NCBI RefSeq assembly: GCF_025353885.1
Contig: NZ_JANXNX010000071.1
Coordinates: forward strand, 1-62,462
Source of the DNA: Sphingomonas sp.
GTDB taxonomy: Bacteria; Pseudomonadota; Alphaproteobacteria; Sphingomonadales; Sphingomonadaceae
Reading direction: 5' to 3'
Length of the DNA stretch: 62,462 nucleotides
Shown here: piece by piece, positions 16,367 to 62,401 of the stretch
How positions within the stretch are numbered: the stretch's first letter is position 1
How the letters are laid out: every line of letters starts with the position of its first letter
The notes under the pieces: model-generated
Database searches by the model: none
The model's input: the letters and a program-made list of their open reading frames with translations, nothing else
What the model was told of the DNA's origin: nothing
Made by a program: the position numbers and the translations under genes

Positions 16367-16384
16367 CCAAAGGGAAACCTTTGG
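16367..16384 (+). other. Hairpin with GAAA tetraloop just before the glycine riboswitch
   Basis: CCAAAGG and CCTTTGG pair perfectly around a GAAA (GNRA) loop. It ends about 10 bases before the first aptamer. GNRA loops often dock in tertiary contacts, but no role is established here. Confidence 0.5.
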
Positions 16385-16389
16385 GTGGC

Positions 16390-16577
16390 CGTGCGGGAGA
16401 GTGGCCGACCGTTGACCCGGTGCAGTCACGCCGAAGGAGCAACCACCCCGGAATCTCTCAGGCACCCGGACCGCGCGGACCAAGACAACTCTGGAAAGCG
16501 TTCCTGTAACAAGCAGGGACCACCGAAGGTGTAAGCTGGTTCGCCAGCGAAAGCTCTCAGGTTTCCGTGACAGAGGG
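16390..16577 (+). promoter_or_regulatory. Tandem glycine riboswitch upstream of gcvT
   Basis: Two aptamers of the glycine riboswitch class lie in tandem. The first contains GGGAGAG, then CGCCGAAGGAGCAA, then AATCTCTCAGGCACC, and closes near GACAACTCTGG. The second contains CACCGAAGGTGTAAGC, then GAAAGCTCTCAGG, and closes at GACAGAGGGGG. These core boxes match the known consensus, and the gcv operon for glycine catabolism follows directly, the usual target of an ON switch. The end of the second aptamer is about 63 bases before the chosen gcvT start and 6 bases before an alternative ATG at 16583. A TTGACG at 16326 could be the -35 box, but no clear -10 is seen. Confidence 0.93.
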
Positions 16578-57750: not shown

Positions 57751-59155
57751 CATTACAGTTGCGCCTTTGATTGAACTCTGAATCAATGTGTGTCCATGGT
57801 ATGGAGGCTGTGGATGACGGGTGCATCGATCGAAACGACATTGGAGCTTTGGGCATCGTCGCTGCGAGACGTGAAGTCGCGGATGCGGGGATTGTTCACG
57901 CAGGAGCGGGTTGCGGCGTCGGCGGGTCTTTTTTTGGACGGGCTGCTGGGGGACGAGCGGCGCAAGACGGGCTGGATGCGTGCCGAGGCGGCGGGCGATC
58001 CCGGGCCGTGGCGTCAGCAGGCCATTCTCGGGCGGGGGCGTTGGGACGCGGAGGCGCTGCGCGATATCGCCCGCGATTATGCGCTGGAGACGCTGACGGA
58101 TGAAGATGCGGTGCTGGTCATCGACGAGACCGGCTTTCTGAAGCAGGGCAAGGCGTCATGCGGCGTGAACCGGCAATATACCGGTTCGGCAGGCAAGATC
58201 ACGAACTGCCAGATCGGGGTGTTCGCGGCCTATGTGTCGCGCCATGGCCATGCGTTCATCGATCGTGCGCTGTATCTGCCCAAGAGTTGGACGAACGACC
58301 CGGTGCGCATGAAGCGGGCACATGTTCCCGCCGGGACGGCGTTTGCGACCAAGCCAGAGCTCGCGGTGACGATGATCGAGCGGGCGATCACGGCAAAGGC
58401 GCCGTTCAGCTGGGTGGCGGCCGACAGCGTCTACGGCGTCGGCGCGATCGAACAGGCCCTGCGACGTGCGGGGAAGGGCTATGTGCTCGGGGTCAACTCC
58501 AACCATCACTTCGCCTCCTGGGGCGTGATCCCACCGGTTGCCGGTACTGCCGAAGGCATCGCAAAAAGCCTTGAGCCCGGGGCCTGGCAGCGGCTGTCGG
58601 CGGGTGAAGGCACCAAGGGCGCAAGGCTTTATGACTGGGCCTATTGCCCACTCGCCGATCTCGATGCGGCCGAATATGACGCACAGCGATCGGGACTGTG
58701 GACCCGCGGCCTGCTGATCCGTCGCACGATCGCGGACGGCGATCTTGCCTTCTTCTCGACCTGGTGCCCGCAAGGCACGACGATCGAAGCCCTTGTCCTG
58801 GTCGAGGGGCGCCGCTGGGCGATCGAGGACAGCTTCGAGACCACCAAGAACGAACTCGGCCTCGATCACAACGAAACCCGCTCCTGGCATGGCTGGAATC
58901 GCCATGTCTCGCTCGTCATGCTCGCCTTTGCGATGATGGCAACCATCCGCCACAAAGCGAACATGACGCCCCCAAAAACAGTCTGGCGGCTTCGGCTCTG
59001 ATCCGCTGGTCGGTTCAGGAAATCCGCCGCATCGCCATCCGTCTCGCTCAGCGCCGTATCCAACCAGCGCACATCATCGCATGGTTGTTGTGGCGAAGGG
59101 CACATCAGGCCGAAGCCAGACACGCTCACCTCAAATCAAAACAGCAACTGTAATG
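57751..59155 (+). mobile_element. IS701-family insertion sequence
   Basis: A 1405-bp element. Its ends are imperfect inverted repeats of 22 bases with 19 matches, beginning CATTACAGTTGC at both ends, flanked by the 4-base duplication CTAG (57747-57750 and 59156-59159). A CTAG/YTAR target of 4 bases is what the IS701 family makes. It encodes one transposase, whose last part is in a different frame. It lies between zwf and an IS5 remnant. Confidence 0.92.
57814..59153 (+). pseudogene. IS701-family transposase, frame broken near the 3' end
   Basis: The DDE residues are present: Asp in VLVIDETGFLKQG, Asp in FSWVAADSVYGVG and Glu in WAIEDSFETTKNELGLD. The ATG at 57814 has GGAGG 6 bases upstream. 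The starting frame ends at 59001 (395 residues, tail KTVWRLRL), while the conserved C-terminal part (NSLAASALIRWSVQ to KSKQQL) continues in the -1 frame to 59153. The switch sits at a C-run/A-run (58969-58978), where C CCA AAA is an in-frame -1 slippery heptamer. It could be a programmed -1 shift giving 446 residues, or a lost base in the A-run. Confidence 0.8.
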
Positions 59156-59159
59156 CTAG

Positions 59160-59821
59160 GTCGTGAACCCATAAACAGGATTCCCAAAGCGTCGTCGATC
59201 TGATTCAGGGTTTCGGCATGAGCCGTTATGATCTGACAGATTTCGAGTGGCGCGTGATCGCGCCGTTGTTGCCGAACAAGCCGCGAGTGGTGCCGAGGGT
59301 CGATGACCGGCGGGTGCTGAACGGCATCTTCTGGGTGTTGCGCTCGGGTGCGCCGTGGCGCGACCTGCCCGAACGCTATGGGCCGAGGACGACGTGCTAC
59401 AACCGGTTTGTCCGTTGGCGGCGAGCGGGCGTGTGGGACCGGCTGATGGACGCGATCACCGAGGCTTACGACGGCGACATCCAGATGATCGACAGCACTT
59501 CCATTCGGGCGCACCAGCAGGCTGCGACCCTAAAAAGGGGGGTCGAGATCATTGTCTCGGTCGCTCCCGAGGCGGCCTCACGACCAAGATCCACGCGATC
59601 GTCGATCGGCAAGGCCTGCCGATCCGCCTCGGCCTGAGCGCGGGGCAAGCGCACGACGCGCCTGCCGTGCTGGCGCTGCTCGACCGGCTCGATCCGCGCA
59701 CCATCGTGCTTGCTGACAAGGCCTATGACGGCAACGCCGTCCGCAAGCTCGCCGACAACTTCCTCGCCATGGTCAAGCTCGCCTCAATGCGGCTGTGGTT
59801 GCGCGCTTATGAGTCTACGGC
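59160..59821 (+). mobile_element. IS5-family (IS427-group-like) remnant with internal deletion
   Basis: The ends GTCGTGAACCCATAAAC and, inverted, GCCGTAGACTCATAAGC match at 12 of 17 positions and are flanked by CTAG (59156-59159 and 59822-59825). At 662 bp it is shorter than intact members of about 800-870 bp. The left flanking CTAG is shared with the IS701 element, so the two insertions abut. Confidence 0.8.
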
Positions 59822-59825
59822 CTAG
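59218..59825 (+). pseudogene. IS5-family transposase remnant
   Basis: The first frame (59218-59637) starts MSRYDLTDFEWRVIAPLLP and holds the first catalytic Asp in MIDSTSIRAHQQAAT. The second frame (-1), entered near an A-run/G-run at 59532-59542, continues DHCLGRSRGGLTTKIHAIVD, then VLADKAYDGNAVRKLADNFLAMVKL and ends YESTA. Two frames joined by a -1 shift are normal in this group. Between KAYDGNAVRKL and ADNFLAM the usual segment with the catalytic Glu is missing, so it cannot be active. The stop TAG lies in the flanking CTAG. Confidence 0.85.
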
Positions 59826-59836
59826 ATTCTGTAGAC

Positions 59837-59864
59837 AAAAAAACCGCGGCGAGCCGCGGTTTTT
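59837..59864. terminator. Bidirectional intrinsic terminator
   Basis: CCGCGG pairs with CCGCGG around the loop CGAG, preceded by seven A and followed by five T on the plus strand. On the minus strand the stem is followed by seven T, the stronger direction. It lies 52 bases beyond the stop of the 27-codon ORF on the minus strand and just right of the IS5 remnant, and can end transcription from either side. Confidence 0.9.
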
Positions 59865-59872
59865 CTTTCAGC

Positions 59873-59896
59873 GGTTACAGATTTCTCCCTGTAACC
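59873..59896 (-). other. 8-bp inverted repeat before the terminator
   Basis: GGTTACAG and CTGTAACC pair perfectly around ATTTCTCC. It lies between the stop of the 27-codon ORF and the terminator, so the transcript would end in two stacked hairpins, as in stable small RNAs. Confidence 0.6.
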
Positions 59897-59915
59897 TTCT
59901 GTTTATTCGGAGGCT

Positions 59916-59999
59916 TCAGCCGCCACCAGCACCCAGACCACGTGTGCAACCAAGAAAGTCCCAAAAACCGCGTACAGGTTTGATGTTCTGCTTCTTCAT
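59916..59999 (-). CDS. Candidate 27-residue peptide, unknown function
   Basis: The ORF reads MKKQNIKPVRGFWDFLGC then TRGLGAGGG. It has a basic N-terminus, an aromatic centre (FWDF), a single Cys and a glycine-rich end. The ribosome site AAGGGA lies 7 bases before the ATG. A hairpin and an intrinsic terminator follow within 80 bases. It could be a real micropeptide, the coding part of a dual-function small RNA, or merely part of the 3' region of the upstream EAL gene. I know no family for it. No processing or export genes are adjacent. Confidence 0.4.
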   Translation of the reverse strand: MKKQNIKPVRGFWDFLGCTRGLGAGGG

Positions 60000-60055
60000 G
60001 ATCAGATCCCTTTTCATCGAAGCGCTGCCGAAGGCACGACTCCGTAACAAAGTTC

Positions 60056-60063
60056 TTAACCAT
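60056..60063. promoter_or_regulatory. CtrA-like half-site upstream of the 27-codon ORF
   Basis: TTAACCAT on the plus strand lies 57 bases upstream of the ORF start. A second, weaker arrangement, TTAG-N7-TTAA, is at 60075-60089. TATAAT on the minus strand (60089-60094) could be a -10 box but has no good -35. All are short matches. Confidence 0.25.
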
Positions 60064-60085
60064 AAGGAACGTGGTTAGCAAACCG

Positions 60086-62401
60086 TTAATTATAAGCGGT
60101 ACGGGATTCCTTTGCGCGAAGTAAAAGCCTCGCCAAAGACGAAAACCGCATCGGGCGACCGATCAGATAGCCCTGGGCCTGGTCGCAACCCATTGCGGCG
60201 AGGGCATTAAGTGTCTCGATAGTCTCGACGCCCTCGGCAACTACTTGGCGATTCAGCTGGTGAGCGAGTTGCACTGTAGAATTGACCATCAGGCGATCGC
60301 TGTTGTTGCGATCGATCAGCGACACGAAGCTCTTGTCGATCTTGATCTCAGTCGCCGGTATTTTTTTCAGGTAGTCGAGCGTCGAAAAGCCGGTGCCATA
60401 GTCGTCGATCGAAATCTTGATCCCGGCGGCGCGCAACTCATTCAGCAGGTTCACGGCATTGCCGTTGTTGGCGATGGCTGCCGATTCGGTGACTTCCAGA
60501 GTCAGCAACGATGGATGAAGTCCGAGGTCGTCGAGGTGGTCGGATATCATGTCGGCCAGATAAGGGCTTTCCAGAAGTCCTGCGGAAAGATTGACGGCGA
60601 TATTGAACGGAATGCCGCGCGTGTTGATCGCGACCGCGGCCCGCACGGCGCTGTTGAGGACATGGAGCGTCAGTTTTTCAATGCGGCCATGCTGTTCGGC
60701 GACCGGGATGAACTCGTCGGGACTGATTTCGCCCTTTTCCGGATGCGACCATCTGACCAGCGCTTCGGCTCCGACGATCCGGCGTGTCGGGATGTCGAGC
60801 TTCGGCTGGTAGGCAACCCAGATCTCACCGTTATCGATAGCCTCGTCGAGGCGCCCGAGCAGAGCCAGTTTCCATTCGGCATTCTTCAGCTTTTCAGGGT
60901 CATAACCTTTCCATTTCTGGCCGTCTGCGGCGGCTTCATCAGCCGCAACCAGCGCGCTTCCGATGCGATTTGCGCTAGAACGCTTGAACCCAGAGTCGAT
61001 ACCGAATGTCACCGCAAGATCGATCTTGCGATCGGCGATTACAACGGGCGTCGAGAGTAATGCATGAAGGCCGCCGAGCTGGTCATTGAAGCTTGATCCC
61101 CGGATATCGCTAGCCAACCAGGCAAAAATGCCTTCGTCACCCTGATACAGGTCAGAGTTACCGACGCCGAGGCCGAAGCGCCGGACGATCTGTTCGACCA
61201 GCACACGTTCCATCACAAGGTCGAGACTCGAGCTGATTTCCGCGAAATTCCGAATGCGCGCGACAATCAGGGACTTCCCCTCAGGTGGCGCGCTTTGCCG
61301 CAAGGCATTCAAGTTCGGCAGACCCGATAAGGCATGGGTCATGCCCCCCTTCAGGCGGATCCGCCTCCGGGCCGCCGCTACAAGTACTATCGTAAGCATG
61401 ACTGCCGCGGGAATGACATCAACGAAGACGAGATTCATCTCGAGAATTAAAGGTAAAACTACGATCATCAGGATGGGCATCGTCACCGCAGCCAGCTTAA
61501 GCTTCTTCTTCTCCGAAAATAGAAAAGCGAGACAGCAGCCGAATGTCGCGAGGCACATCCACAGCGGATTGATCTCGACCGGAATACCCCGTTTTAAAGT
61601 TTCTGCCGACAGAACATGACCATATACACCTGCCACCCGCCCCTGGCCGGGAAGGTTGTAAGTATCGTTGAGATCGGCCGAGATTGCCCCGATCATCACG
61701 TCCTTGCCGCGAAAGCGGGAGCTCGGGATGACGTTTTTGAGGATGTCGACTGCGGAAAAGGTAGGCACCGAGCTGACGAGGATAGAATTGTCAATCGGGA
61801 ACGACTCCGCGCCGTCACCAGTGACGCCTGCCATAACACTGGCCATTGAGGGGTAATTAACTCCATCGAATGTTCGGGAGAAATGCATTCTCCACAGTTC
61901 GTCGGCAAAGTTCATTTGTCCGCTGATGTTGGCAAGCCGAATGTCGTGCCCGAGCTGCGGTGACGGGATCACTGCCTTGAACACTGTGGTCGACGGACCA
62001 TAATCCAGCCGAATGGGCAGAATAATCTTTGATGGAGTGCGGTGGAACGCCTGGCTCAGGGCGAGGTCGTCGACTGGATTTGTCTTTCCGGTGAAGTTGA
62101 GATCGAACAGAATTCGCCGCGCACCGCCGGTGTTTAGGTTGTTAACTATTTGCGCCACGTCGCGCCTGCGCCATGGCCAACGACCCAGCTCATGAATGCT
62201 CTTTTCGTCGAGGCCGACAACGACAATGTCCCCGCTCGCCTGAGTGGGGTGAAGCACGTTACGTGCACTGCGCAACAGGTTCTCGACCGGCTCACCGAAG
62301 CCGGTGACGCTAAAGATCACCCCGACGGCCGCAGCCCAGATGAGGGTCTTGCGCCAGGGATTTGCCGTCTTTTCACTCTTCCGCCGCAGGGCAGGCCACA
62401 T
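60086..62401 (-). CDS. CHASE2 sensor - degenerate GGDEF - EAL cyclic-di-GMP phosphodiesterase
   Basis: The protein has 771 residues. An N-terminal membrane helix is followed by a CHASE2 periplasmic sensor (about 45-290, IVVVGLDEKSIHELGRWPWR) and three membrane helices (about 290-365). Next is a GGDEF domain whose signature reads YQGDEGIFAW, so diguanylate cyclase activity is probably lost or altered. The complete-looking EAL domain has AEALVRW, FNIAVNLSAG, LTLEVTESAAI, IDDYGTGFSTLDYLKKIPA, IKIDKSFV and VAEGVET. It probably degrades cyclic di-GMP in response to a periplasmic signal. The start is ATG at 62401. Confidence 0.93.
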   Translation of the reverse strand: MWPALRRKSEKTANPWRKTLIWAAAVGVIFSVTGFGEPVENLLRSARNVLHPTQASGDIVVVGLDEKSIHELGRWPWRRRDVAQIVNNLNTGGARRILFDLNFTGKTNPVDDLALSQAFHRTPSKIILPIRLDYGPSTTVFKAVIPSPQLGHDIRLANISGQMNFADELWRMHFSRTFDGVNYPSMASVMAGVTGDGAESFPIDNSILVSSVPTFSAVDILKNVIPSSRFRGKDVMIGAISADLNDTYNLPGQGRVAGVYGHVLSAETLKRGIPVEINPLWMCLATFGCCLAFLFSEKKKLKLAAVTMPILMIVVLPLILEMNLVFVDVIPAAVMLTIVLVAAARRRIRLKGGMTHALSGLPNLNALRQSAPPEGKSLIVARIRNFAEISSSLDLVMERVLVEQIVRRFGLGVGNSDLYQGDEGIFAWLASDIRGSSFNDQLGGLHALLSTPVVIADRKIDLAVTFGIDSGFKRSSANRIGSALVAADEAAADGQKWKGYDPEKLKNAEWKLALLGRLDEAIDNGEIWVAYQPKLDIPTRRIVGAEALVRWSHPEKGEISPDEFIPVAEQHGRIEKLTLHVLNSAVRAAVAINTRGIPFNIAVNLSAGLLESPYLADMISDHLDDLGLHPSLLTLEVTESAAIANNGNAVNLLNELRAAGIKISIDDYGTGFSTLDYLKKIPATEIKIDKSFVSLIDRNNSDRLMVNSTVQLAHQLNRQVVAEGVETIETLNALAAMGCDQAQGYLIGRPMRFSSLARLLLRAKESRTAYN

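Follow-up and report, generated by a model that had tools for sequence, protein, structure and literature searches.

Small regulatory membrane proteins of bacteria such as MgtS, KdpF, SgrT and AcrZ act unprocessed and tune a neighbouring or partner protein. For most CHASE2 and degenerate GGDEF domains, no input has been identified to our knowledge. In streptococci, ComS can act intracellularly without processing, export or import (PMC6211226). In Sinorhizobium meliloti, the CHASE2 sensors CyaD1, CyaD2 and CyaK have a cAMP/cGMP output, and the signal is the plant protein uL2, perceived via the outer membrane protein NsrA (PMC13001267).

Here, we analyzed a locus in a 62,462-nucleotide stretch of Sphingomonas sp. 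DNA (assembly GCF_025353885.1, contig NZ_JANXNX010000071.1), hereafter the window. We propose that positions 59999–59916 (minus strand) encode a true micropeptide, one of a new family, and that its gene is paired in a two-gene cassette with the CHASE2-EAL cyclic di-GMP (c-di-GMP) phosphodiesterase gene that lies upstream.

Micropeptide gene behind a CHASE2-EAL gene

The original prediction, made from the sequence alone, consisted of an ATG preceded by AAGGGA with a 7-nt spacer, 27 codons and a stop codon, followed by an 8-bp perfect hairpin and a strong terminator. The reading frame and its ribosome site were all recovered in position on the minus strand, and after the stop codon, the hairpin (59896–59873) was confirmed by scanning and folding and the terminator (59862–59837) by folding. 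The features of the locus are as follows.

60086–62401, minus strand: partner gene of 771 codons, type A, encoding a CHASE2-transmembrane-degenerate GGDEF-EAL protein (Pfam, residues, tree)
60053–60081, minus strand: promoter-like element TTGCTA-N17-TAAGAA with TAACC/GGTTAA half-sites (sequence, single occurrence in its own genome, relatives), missed by the sigma-70 scanner
60007–60012, minus strand: Shine-Dalgarno-like AAGGGA, 7-nt spacer to the ATG (sequence)
59916–59999, minus strand: micropeptide gene, 27 codons and stop (ATG 59999–59997, TGA 59918–59916)
59873–59896, minus strand: 8-bp perfect hairpin 3′ of the stop codon (scanner, where it is listed on the plus strand, and folding)
59837–59862, minus strand: intrinsic terminator with a AAACCGCGG stem, a 4-nt loop and a T-run (folding)

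The 27 codons encode MKKQNIKPVRGFWDFLGCTRGLGAGGG. An alternative in-frame ATG at 60017 would give 33 codons, and comparison with alignable relatives points to 59999 as the start. The CHASE2-EAL gene lies on the same strand and ends 86 nt upstream of the micro-ORF. The transcript 60045–59833 folded more stably than all 200 of its shuffled versions (z = −3.40). The terminator was detected by folding and not by the simple scanner, which listed neither it nor any sigma-70 promoter (rule: 9 of 12 consensus matches). The 8-bp hairpin was absent, by eye, 3′ of the peptide gene of one relative (genome G027). A TATAAT-like box, also part of the original prediction, is indeed present at 60094–60089, but it is made up of the two final EAL codons (TAT AAT) and did not appear, by eye, to be kept in relatives.

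Other features of the window were recorded. An insertion element (59157–59825, plus strand), which we take to be IS5-like, stands directly behind the terminator and leaves the micropeptide unit intact. Its transposase ORF is split over two frames (59218–59637 and 59355–59825), and its ends carry the imperfect repeats CTAGGTCGTGAACCCATAAAC and CTAGGCCGTAGACTCATAAGC, with CTAG at both. A second ORF of 403 codons (57790–59001, plus strand), presumably transposase-like, adjoins it. The sole Rfam match of the window at the gathering score was a glycine riboswitch (RF00504, 59.3 bits) at 16384–16483 on the plus strand, away from the micropeptide unit.

Distribution and sequences of the peptide

The window peptide was searched against 59 genomes, 13 of which gave a match at E ≤ 1. 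The true relatives besides the window itself were found in G027 (E = 0.00136) and, with weak E-values, in G007 and G003 (locus L040), and all three peptides traced back to a CHASE2-EAL gene. Ten of the 15 rows (L003, L005–L008, L010–L013 and L015), as well as L014 in the window, were judged to be chance matches, partly from their sequence and partly from E-values ≥0.1. Later searches were therefore anchored on the enzyme.

At an E-value of 1e-60, the enzyme was found in at least 90 of 199 family genomes and at 104 or more places; these counts are lower bounds, as only the best few candidates per genome were scored. The peptide stood behind 70 of the 104 family-genome places. An order-level draw of 296 genomes yielded 53 further enzyme places that were used, 47 of them with the peptide. 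Among the matches listed, the full-length enzyme was confined to the family of the window, the place in another family (G266) being partial (residues 376–760).

A micro-ORF on the same strand was found behind the CHASE2-EAL gene at 117 of the 157 loci examined (117 of 142 genomes), and among these loci, no genome with the peptide had two. The micro-ORF begins at a median of 70 nt behind the enzyme stop (48–373 nt) and occupies the three frames relative to the enzyme at 44, 42 and 31 loci; as all three occur, it is no read-through extension of the enzyme.

The peptides are 10–41 codons long, 30 of the 117 having at most 12, and 116 of the 117 sequences are distinct. They share a core, [FI]-W-x-W-[LIF]-[FLM]-G, and examples are MKNQKSRPVRGFWDWLFGGSGGAAGGKG, MKKRPPVKGFWSWLFGGGWSNAGSGG, MSIWDYLFGGRWGSGGSKG, MWNFWEWLMGK, MFRSIWDWIFDN and MFDFWNWLFR. 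The pattern x-phi-W-x-[WYFIL] fits 103 peptides. In this subset, the residue before the Trp is F or I in 94 and the residue after it is D or E in 61; Trp is also the second aromatic residue in 87, and G occupies the eighth place in 72.

The other 14 depart from the core. Peptides with a departed core stand in the right place at L095, L097, L165, L166, L190 and L229 (e.g., MWDWALNWFERWV, MKKWPWAGWNW, MFWRFFHDVFGRR and MWYILFRRFL). They are still rich in aromatic residues, so that aromatic character, and not the exact motif, may be the conserved feature. In a scan of named genomes, 80 of 594 stretches were kept and five of the 80 were inspected downstream; the micro-ORF was present in two, an uncultured Sphingomonadaceae bacterium (L227), where the core is present, and Novosphingobium fuchskuhlense (L229), whose peptide departs from it.

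Partner enzyme and its clades

The window enzyme matched the Pfam EAL (2.8e-70) and CHASE2 (1.7e-27) domains. GDEG replaces GGDEF near residue 421, and the catalytic E-N-E-DD-K-E-Q residues are present. A tree of 110 enzymes contained a 15-member clade without the peptide (type B), and the peptide was found with 92 of the 95 others (type A); the peptide label needed four changes on this tree versus 16.9 when shuffled, and none of the 500 shuffles needed so few. All 95 type A and all 15 type B enzymes retained their EAL catalytic residues, except for the EAL triplet, which was intact in 93 of 95 and 14 of 15, respectively. Judging from its residues, the partner meets the catalytic requirements of an active EAL c-di-GMP phosphodiesterase, its activity itself being inferred.

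In a larger tree of 134 rows, the peptide accompanied 95 of the 98 type A enzymes and none of the 32 enzymes of type B. Twenty-two peptide-less rows initially had no full enzyme sequence. Of the 19 that were placed in the tree, 16 fell in the peptide-less clade and three (L341, L342 and L351) in a small clade beside type A, while L116, L117 and L119, with partial EAL matches, were left out. A single gain of the peptide is likely but not firm, since this tree was rooted on one gammaproteobacterial sequence, the branch of the 98 rows had a support of only 0.41, and the midpoint-rooted tree of 110 enzymes nests type B within type A. The window genome has one gene of each type (L016 and L185), its second copy belonging to the sister clade without the peptide.

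Three type A loci were exceptions: no peptide was found at L026; a transposase-like ORF (by eye) takes the place of the peptide at L044, where an in-frame stop interrupts the enzyme gene; and at L191, a GTG ORF without Trp, MIDLIAIALGSRRGS, stands in its place and was counted as lacking. At L044 (G151), the enzyme and the peptide may be decaying together. One in-frame stop was also seen in the enzyme of G349. A metagenome bin titled Candidatus Sulfopaludibacter (L228) carries a CHASE2-EAL gene of the peptide-less clade, possibly on a mis-binned contig.

Besides the enzyme, no ORF family was common to more than three of 20 neighbourhoods of ~14 kb (ORFs of at least 90 codons, picked by length), and the next ORF of at least 90 codons was convergent at 14 of the 20 loci. 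The retention of a tiny gene behind one enzyme across the family points to a very small peptide as a working partner of that enzyme, and we consider a functional coupling of the two to be highly probable.

Coding potential and selection

A strict rule (Shine-Dalgarno-like site, ATG, 8–50 codons and [FILWY]-W-[DENSGKRQTA]-[WYF]) was met at 76 of 95 type A loci and at 0 of 15 type B loci. It was met at none of the 95 on the opposite strand or in the 450–800 nt region, and 20 rounds of dinucleotide shuffles gave a mean of 0.05 and a maximum of 1. With a wider expression and inspection, 92 of 95 type A loci were included, L097, L118, L124, L143, L157 and L166 being entered by hand.

Purifying selection was apparent in 23 disjoint pairs (pS 0.464, pN 0.215; pS > pN in 22 of 23), where codon position 3 accounted for 190 of 395 changes. 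The pairs were aligned as protein and hand-picked from the tree, which introduces a slight bias toward a coding signal. The pair L125/L131 differs by seven synonymous changes and no others. The computational part of the frame check thus came out as a gene would require: start, stop, ribosome site and core residues are conserved in relatives, and synonymous changes are commoner than opportunity predicts.

A chance ORF was rejected in view of the controls of the strict rule, the conservation of residues and the synonymous bias. As far as sequence can tell, the micro-ORF of the window is almost certainly a real coding gene; its translation is inferred, in the absence of expression or ribosome data.

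Expression signals

The upstream element that is kept is TTGCTAACC (60081–60073), and the −10-like TAAGAA (60058–60053) lies 17 nt after TTGCTA. The pattern TTGCTAACC-N8..16-GGTTAA-N20..50-ATG has a single occurrence in the window genome. Among the 117 loci, TTAACC/GGTTAA was present within 110 nt before the ATG at 95 (versus 5.7 in shuffles and 2 of 15 type B loci) and TTTACAAA upstream of the ATG at 40 (versus 0.2 in shuffles and 0 of 15 type B loci). The fuller −35/−10 pattern with 16–18 nt spacing fitted only 23 of the 117 (versus 0.9 in shuffles), and the promoter reading therefore rests partly on inspection by eye. Only L018 showed, by eye, the full spacing of half-sites in the CtrA consensus. 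That a CtrA-like regulator or a leader hairpin controls the gene is an inference, with no data on dependence.

A rule-based search detected a Shine-Dalgarno-like site in 116 of the 117 relatives, and a terminator-like structure followed the peptide ORF within 150 nt at 103 of 117 loci, versus 3 of 15 behind type B genes. A terminator between the enzyme and peptide genes was found at only 10 of 117 loci, so that read-through from the enzyme gene is not excluded. The micropeptide had been predicted to be independent; its own upstream element and terminator fit this description, which is nevertheless incomplete, as it leaves out the coupling to the CHASE2-EAL gene upstream, previously taken only as a source of read-through.

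The leader can cover the Shine-Dalgarno site with at least six Watson-Crick pairs at 26 of 116 loci (3.1 expected) and with at least eight at seven loci (0.2 expected). This excess is weak once G-U pairs are allowed, and the window leader, which forms only five pairs with the site, is not a clear case. The idea of a dual-function RNA is neither shown nor excluded.

At the level of sequence, a conserved coding frame, a link to one enzyme clade, absence from the sister clade and a frequent upstream element and terminator can be regarded as established.

Copies elsewhere and previous descriptions

Two pattern searches of 199 family genomes gave 27 matches (19 + 8), 18 of which are in-frame ORFs of up to 45 codons. 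Fifteen of these lie at known enzyme loci, and another (L218), at a contig edge, is identical in sequence to L202, which comes from the same genome. L206 and L217, considered as orphan copies, lie away from the enzyme and were judged to be chance. No convincing copy of the peptide away from the enzyme was found in the 199 genomes with these patterns, which detect only part of the family. A class-wide control of 190 genomes, counted regardless of neighbours, gave ten pattern matches, two of them in-frame ORFs of up to 45 codons (L331 and L332).

The enzyme was unmatched in plasmids at an E-value of 1e-70, and 24 phage records had partial EAL matches, none covering 80%. The window peptide, the only member scanned, matched no Pfam or NCBIfam family at an E-value of 1. 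No description of the peptide was found in the literature, where coverage was short on most subscription papers and preprints. A survey covering the c-di-GMP genes of five alphaproteobacterial orders, including Sphingomonadales, contains neither "CHASE2" nor "small protein" in its main text (PMC9756655). To the extent searched, the peptide family is undescribed.

Proposed site of action of the peptide

We propose that the peptide would be made probably from its own short transcript, possibly also via read-through from the enzyme gene, and would remain intracellular (by eye, it has no signal peptide, and no conserved exporter is nearby). Its Trp-rich amphipathic core would then set the phosphodiesterase activity by acting on the adjacent enzyme, the likeliest site being the degenerate GGDEF domain together with the linker between GGDEF and EAL. 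That the peptide acts directly, in the cytoplasm, on the GGDEF-EAL part of the adjacent enzyme is a tentative reading, to which we give slightly less than even weight. Physical binding, its site (around D461, R479 and W510), membrane contact and the direction of the effect are inferred, with no expression, binding or mutant data.

At 50–55% EAL identity, the CHASE2 identity was 31% in type A versus 50% in type B, and the GGDEF-like identity was 38% versus 28%. The shift had the same direction in all five EAL-identity bins, with little difference in the transmembrane part; the domain identities derive from non-independent pairs. W510 was present in 95 of 98 type A versus 6 of 31 type B enzymes, R479 in 85 of 98 versus at most 2 of 31, and D461 in 95 of 98 versus 18 of 31, these residues having been chosen after a search for differences between the two types. 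This shift in constraint fits a cytoplasmic partner of the GGDEF-like region together with a relaxed sensor. In an AlphaFold2 model of a read-through pseudo-fusion (L229, 27-row alignment), the peptide was left unplaced (pLDDT about 41–45).

The same shift also fits a CHASE2 receptor diversifying alongside its ligand, and the main rival to action in the cytoplasm is that the peptide is a pheromone, leaving the cytoplasm to be sensed by the extracytoplasmic CHASE2 domain in a form of short-peptide signalling into c-di-GMP. The far greater variability of the type A CHASE2 at equal EAL identity is what a diversifying receptor would give, though relaxed constraint explains it equally well, and the near absence of repeated peptide sequences also favours a pheromone. 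Co-divergence with the peptide, as partial correlation given EAL, was 0.31 for CHASE2 and 0.29 for the GGDEF-like region over 43 disjoint pairs, but over all pairs CHASE2 adds nothing (0.04, with 0.28 for the GGDEF-like region); the two tests disagree and do not settle the site of action. There is a precedent for a CHASE2 domain responding to a protein signal in the S. meliloti cyclases (PMC13001267). However, inspection by eye revealed no signal peptide, and 20 neighbourhoods of ~14 kb shared neither an exporter nor a peptidase, the rest of the genome being outside this search. We regard a pheromone as unlikely.

It is similarly doubtful that the peptide acts on another target, for instance the surface of the membrane or the machinery of division or of the cell poles, its adjacency to the enzyme reflecting shared regulation. 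Membrane-surface peptides typically have Trp-rich amphipathic cores, and the gene's own upstream element and terminator would permit separate expression. This reading has to contend with the absence of the peptide behind the sister clade (0 of 32) and with the lack of a convincing copy away from the enzyme in the pattern searches of 199 genomes.

A small RNA or 3′-end RNA, with a short ORF that is incidental or merely protects the transcript, would account for the stable fold and for the pairing of the leader with the Shine-Dalgarno site beyond chance, but it is very improbable given that residues are conserved with synonymous change and that the sequence outside the ORF is, by eye, dissimilar between distant loci. 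An attenuator leader peptide for a downstream gene, similar in outline in that a short ORF precedes a hairpin and terminator, is hardly credible when the next ORF is mostly convergent, no downstream family recurs in more than three of 20 loci and an insertion element stands downstream in the window. A precursor of a modified peptide (RiPP) was rejected, as the 20 loci share no maturase or other neighbour.

Comparison with known systems

If the peptide acts on the adjacent enzyme, the family-wide cassette would make an unprocessed peptide, in some cases only 10–12 residues long and among the shortest conserved genes known, the encoded ligand of a c-di-GMP enzyme; control would have moved from the periplasmic CHASE2 to the cytoplasmic GGDEF-like domain, or CHASE2 would diversify to read a species-specific signal. 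We consider the case for this wider view to be evenly balanced. With a peptide partner encoded next to the enzyme, in a single copy per genome, the input of this group of enzymes becomes open to a direct test.

Like CyaD1, CyaD2 and CyaK of S. meliloti, the partner carries a CHASE2 sensor on a nucleotide second-messenger enzyme; unlike the window cassette, these have no micropeptide gene mentioned in the part of the report that is available (PMC13001267). The domain order and the intact EAL catalytic residues recall the GGDEF-EAL phosphodiesterases with a degenerate GGDEF domain (NCBIfam DibA and DosP models), but the window enzyme differs by its CHASE2 domain and scores far short of the curated cut-offs of all named NCBIfam models examined.

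In the streptococcal ComS/XIP-ComR and SHP-Rgg systems, a very short, partly Trp-rich peptide acts on a partner encoded alongside, as would be the case here. However, their partner is a cytosolic transcription factor, whereas here it would be a membrane-bound c-di-GMP phosphodiesterase on which the action of the peptide is unproven.

MgtS, KdpF, SgrT and AcrZ are longer than the present peptides, 30 of which, unlike these proteins, have no more than 12 residues and are therefore too short to span a membrane. Gene callers usually apply length limits above 12 codons, and conserved genes of the size of these 30 may therefore be widely overlooked.
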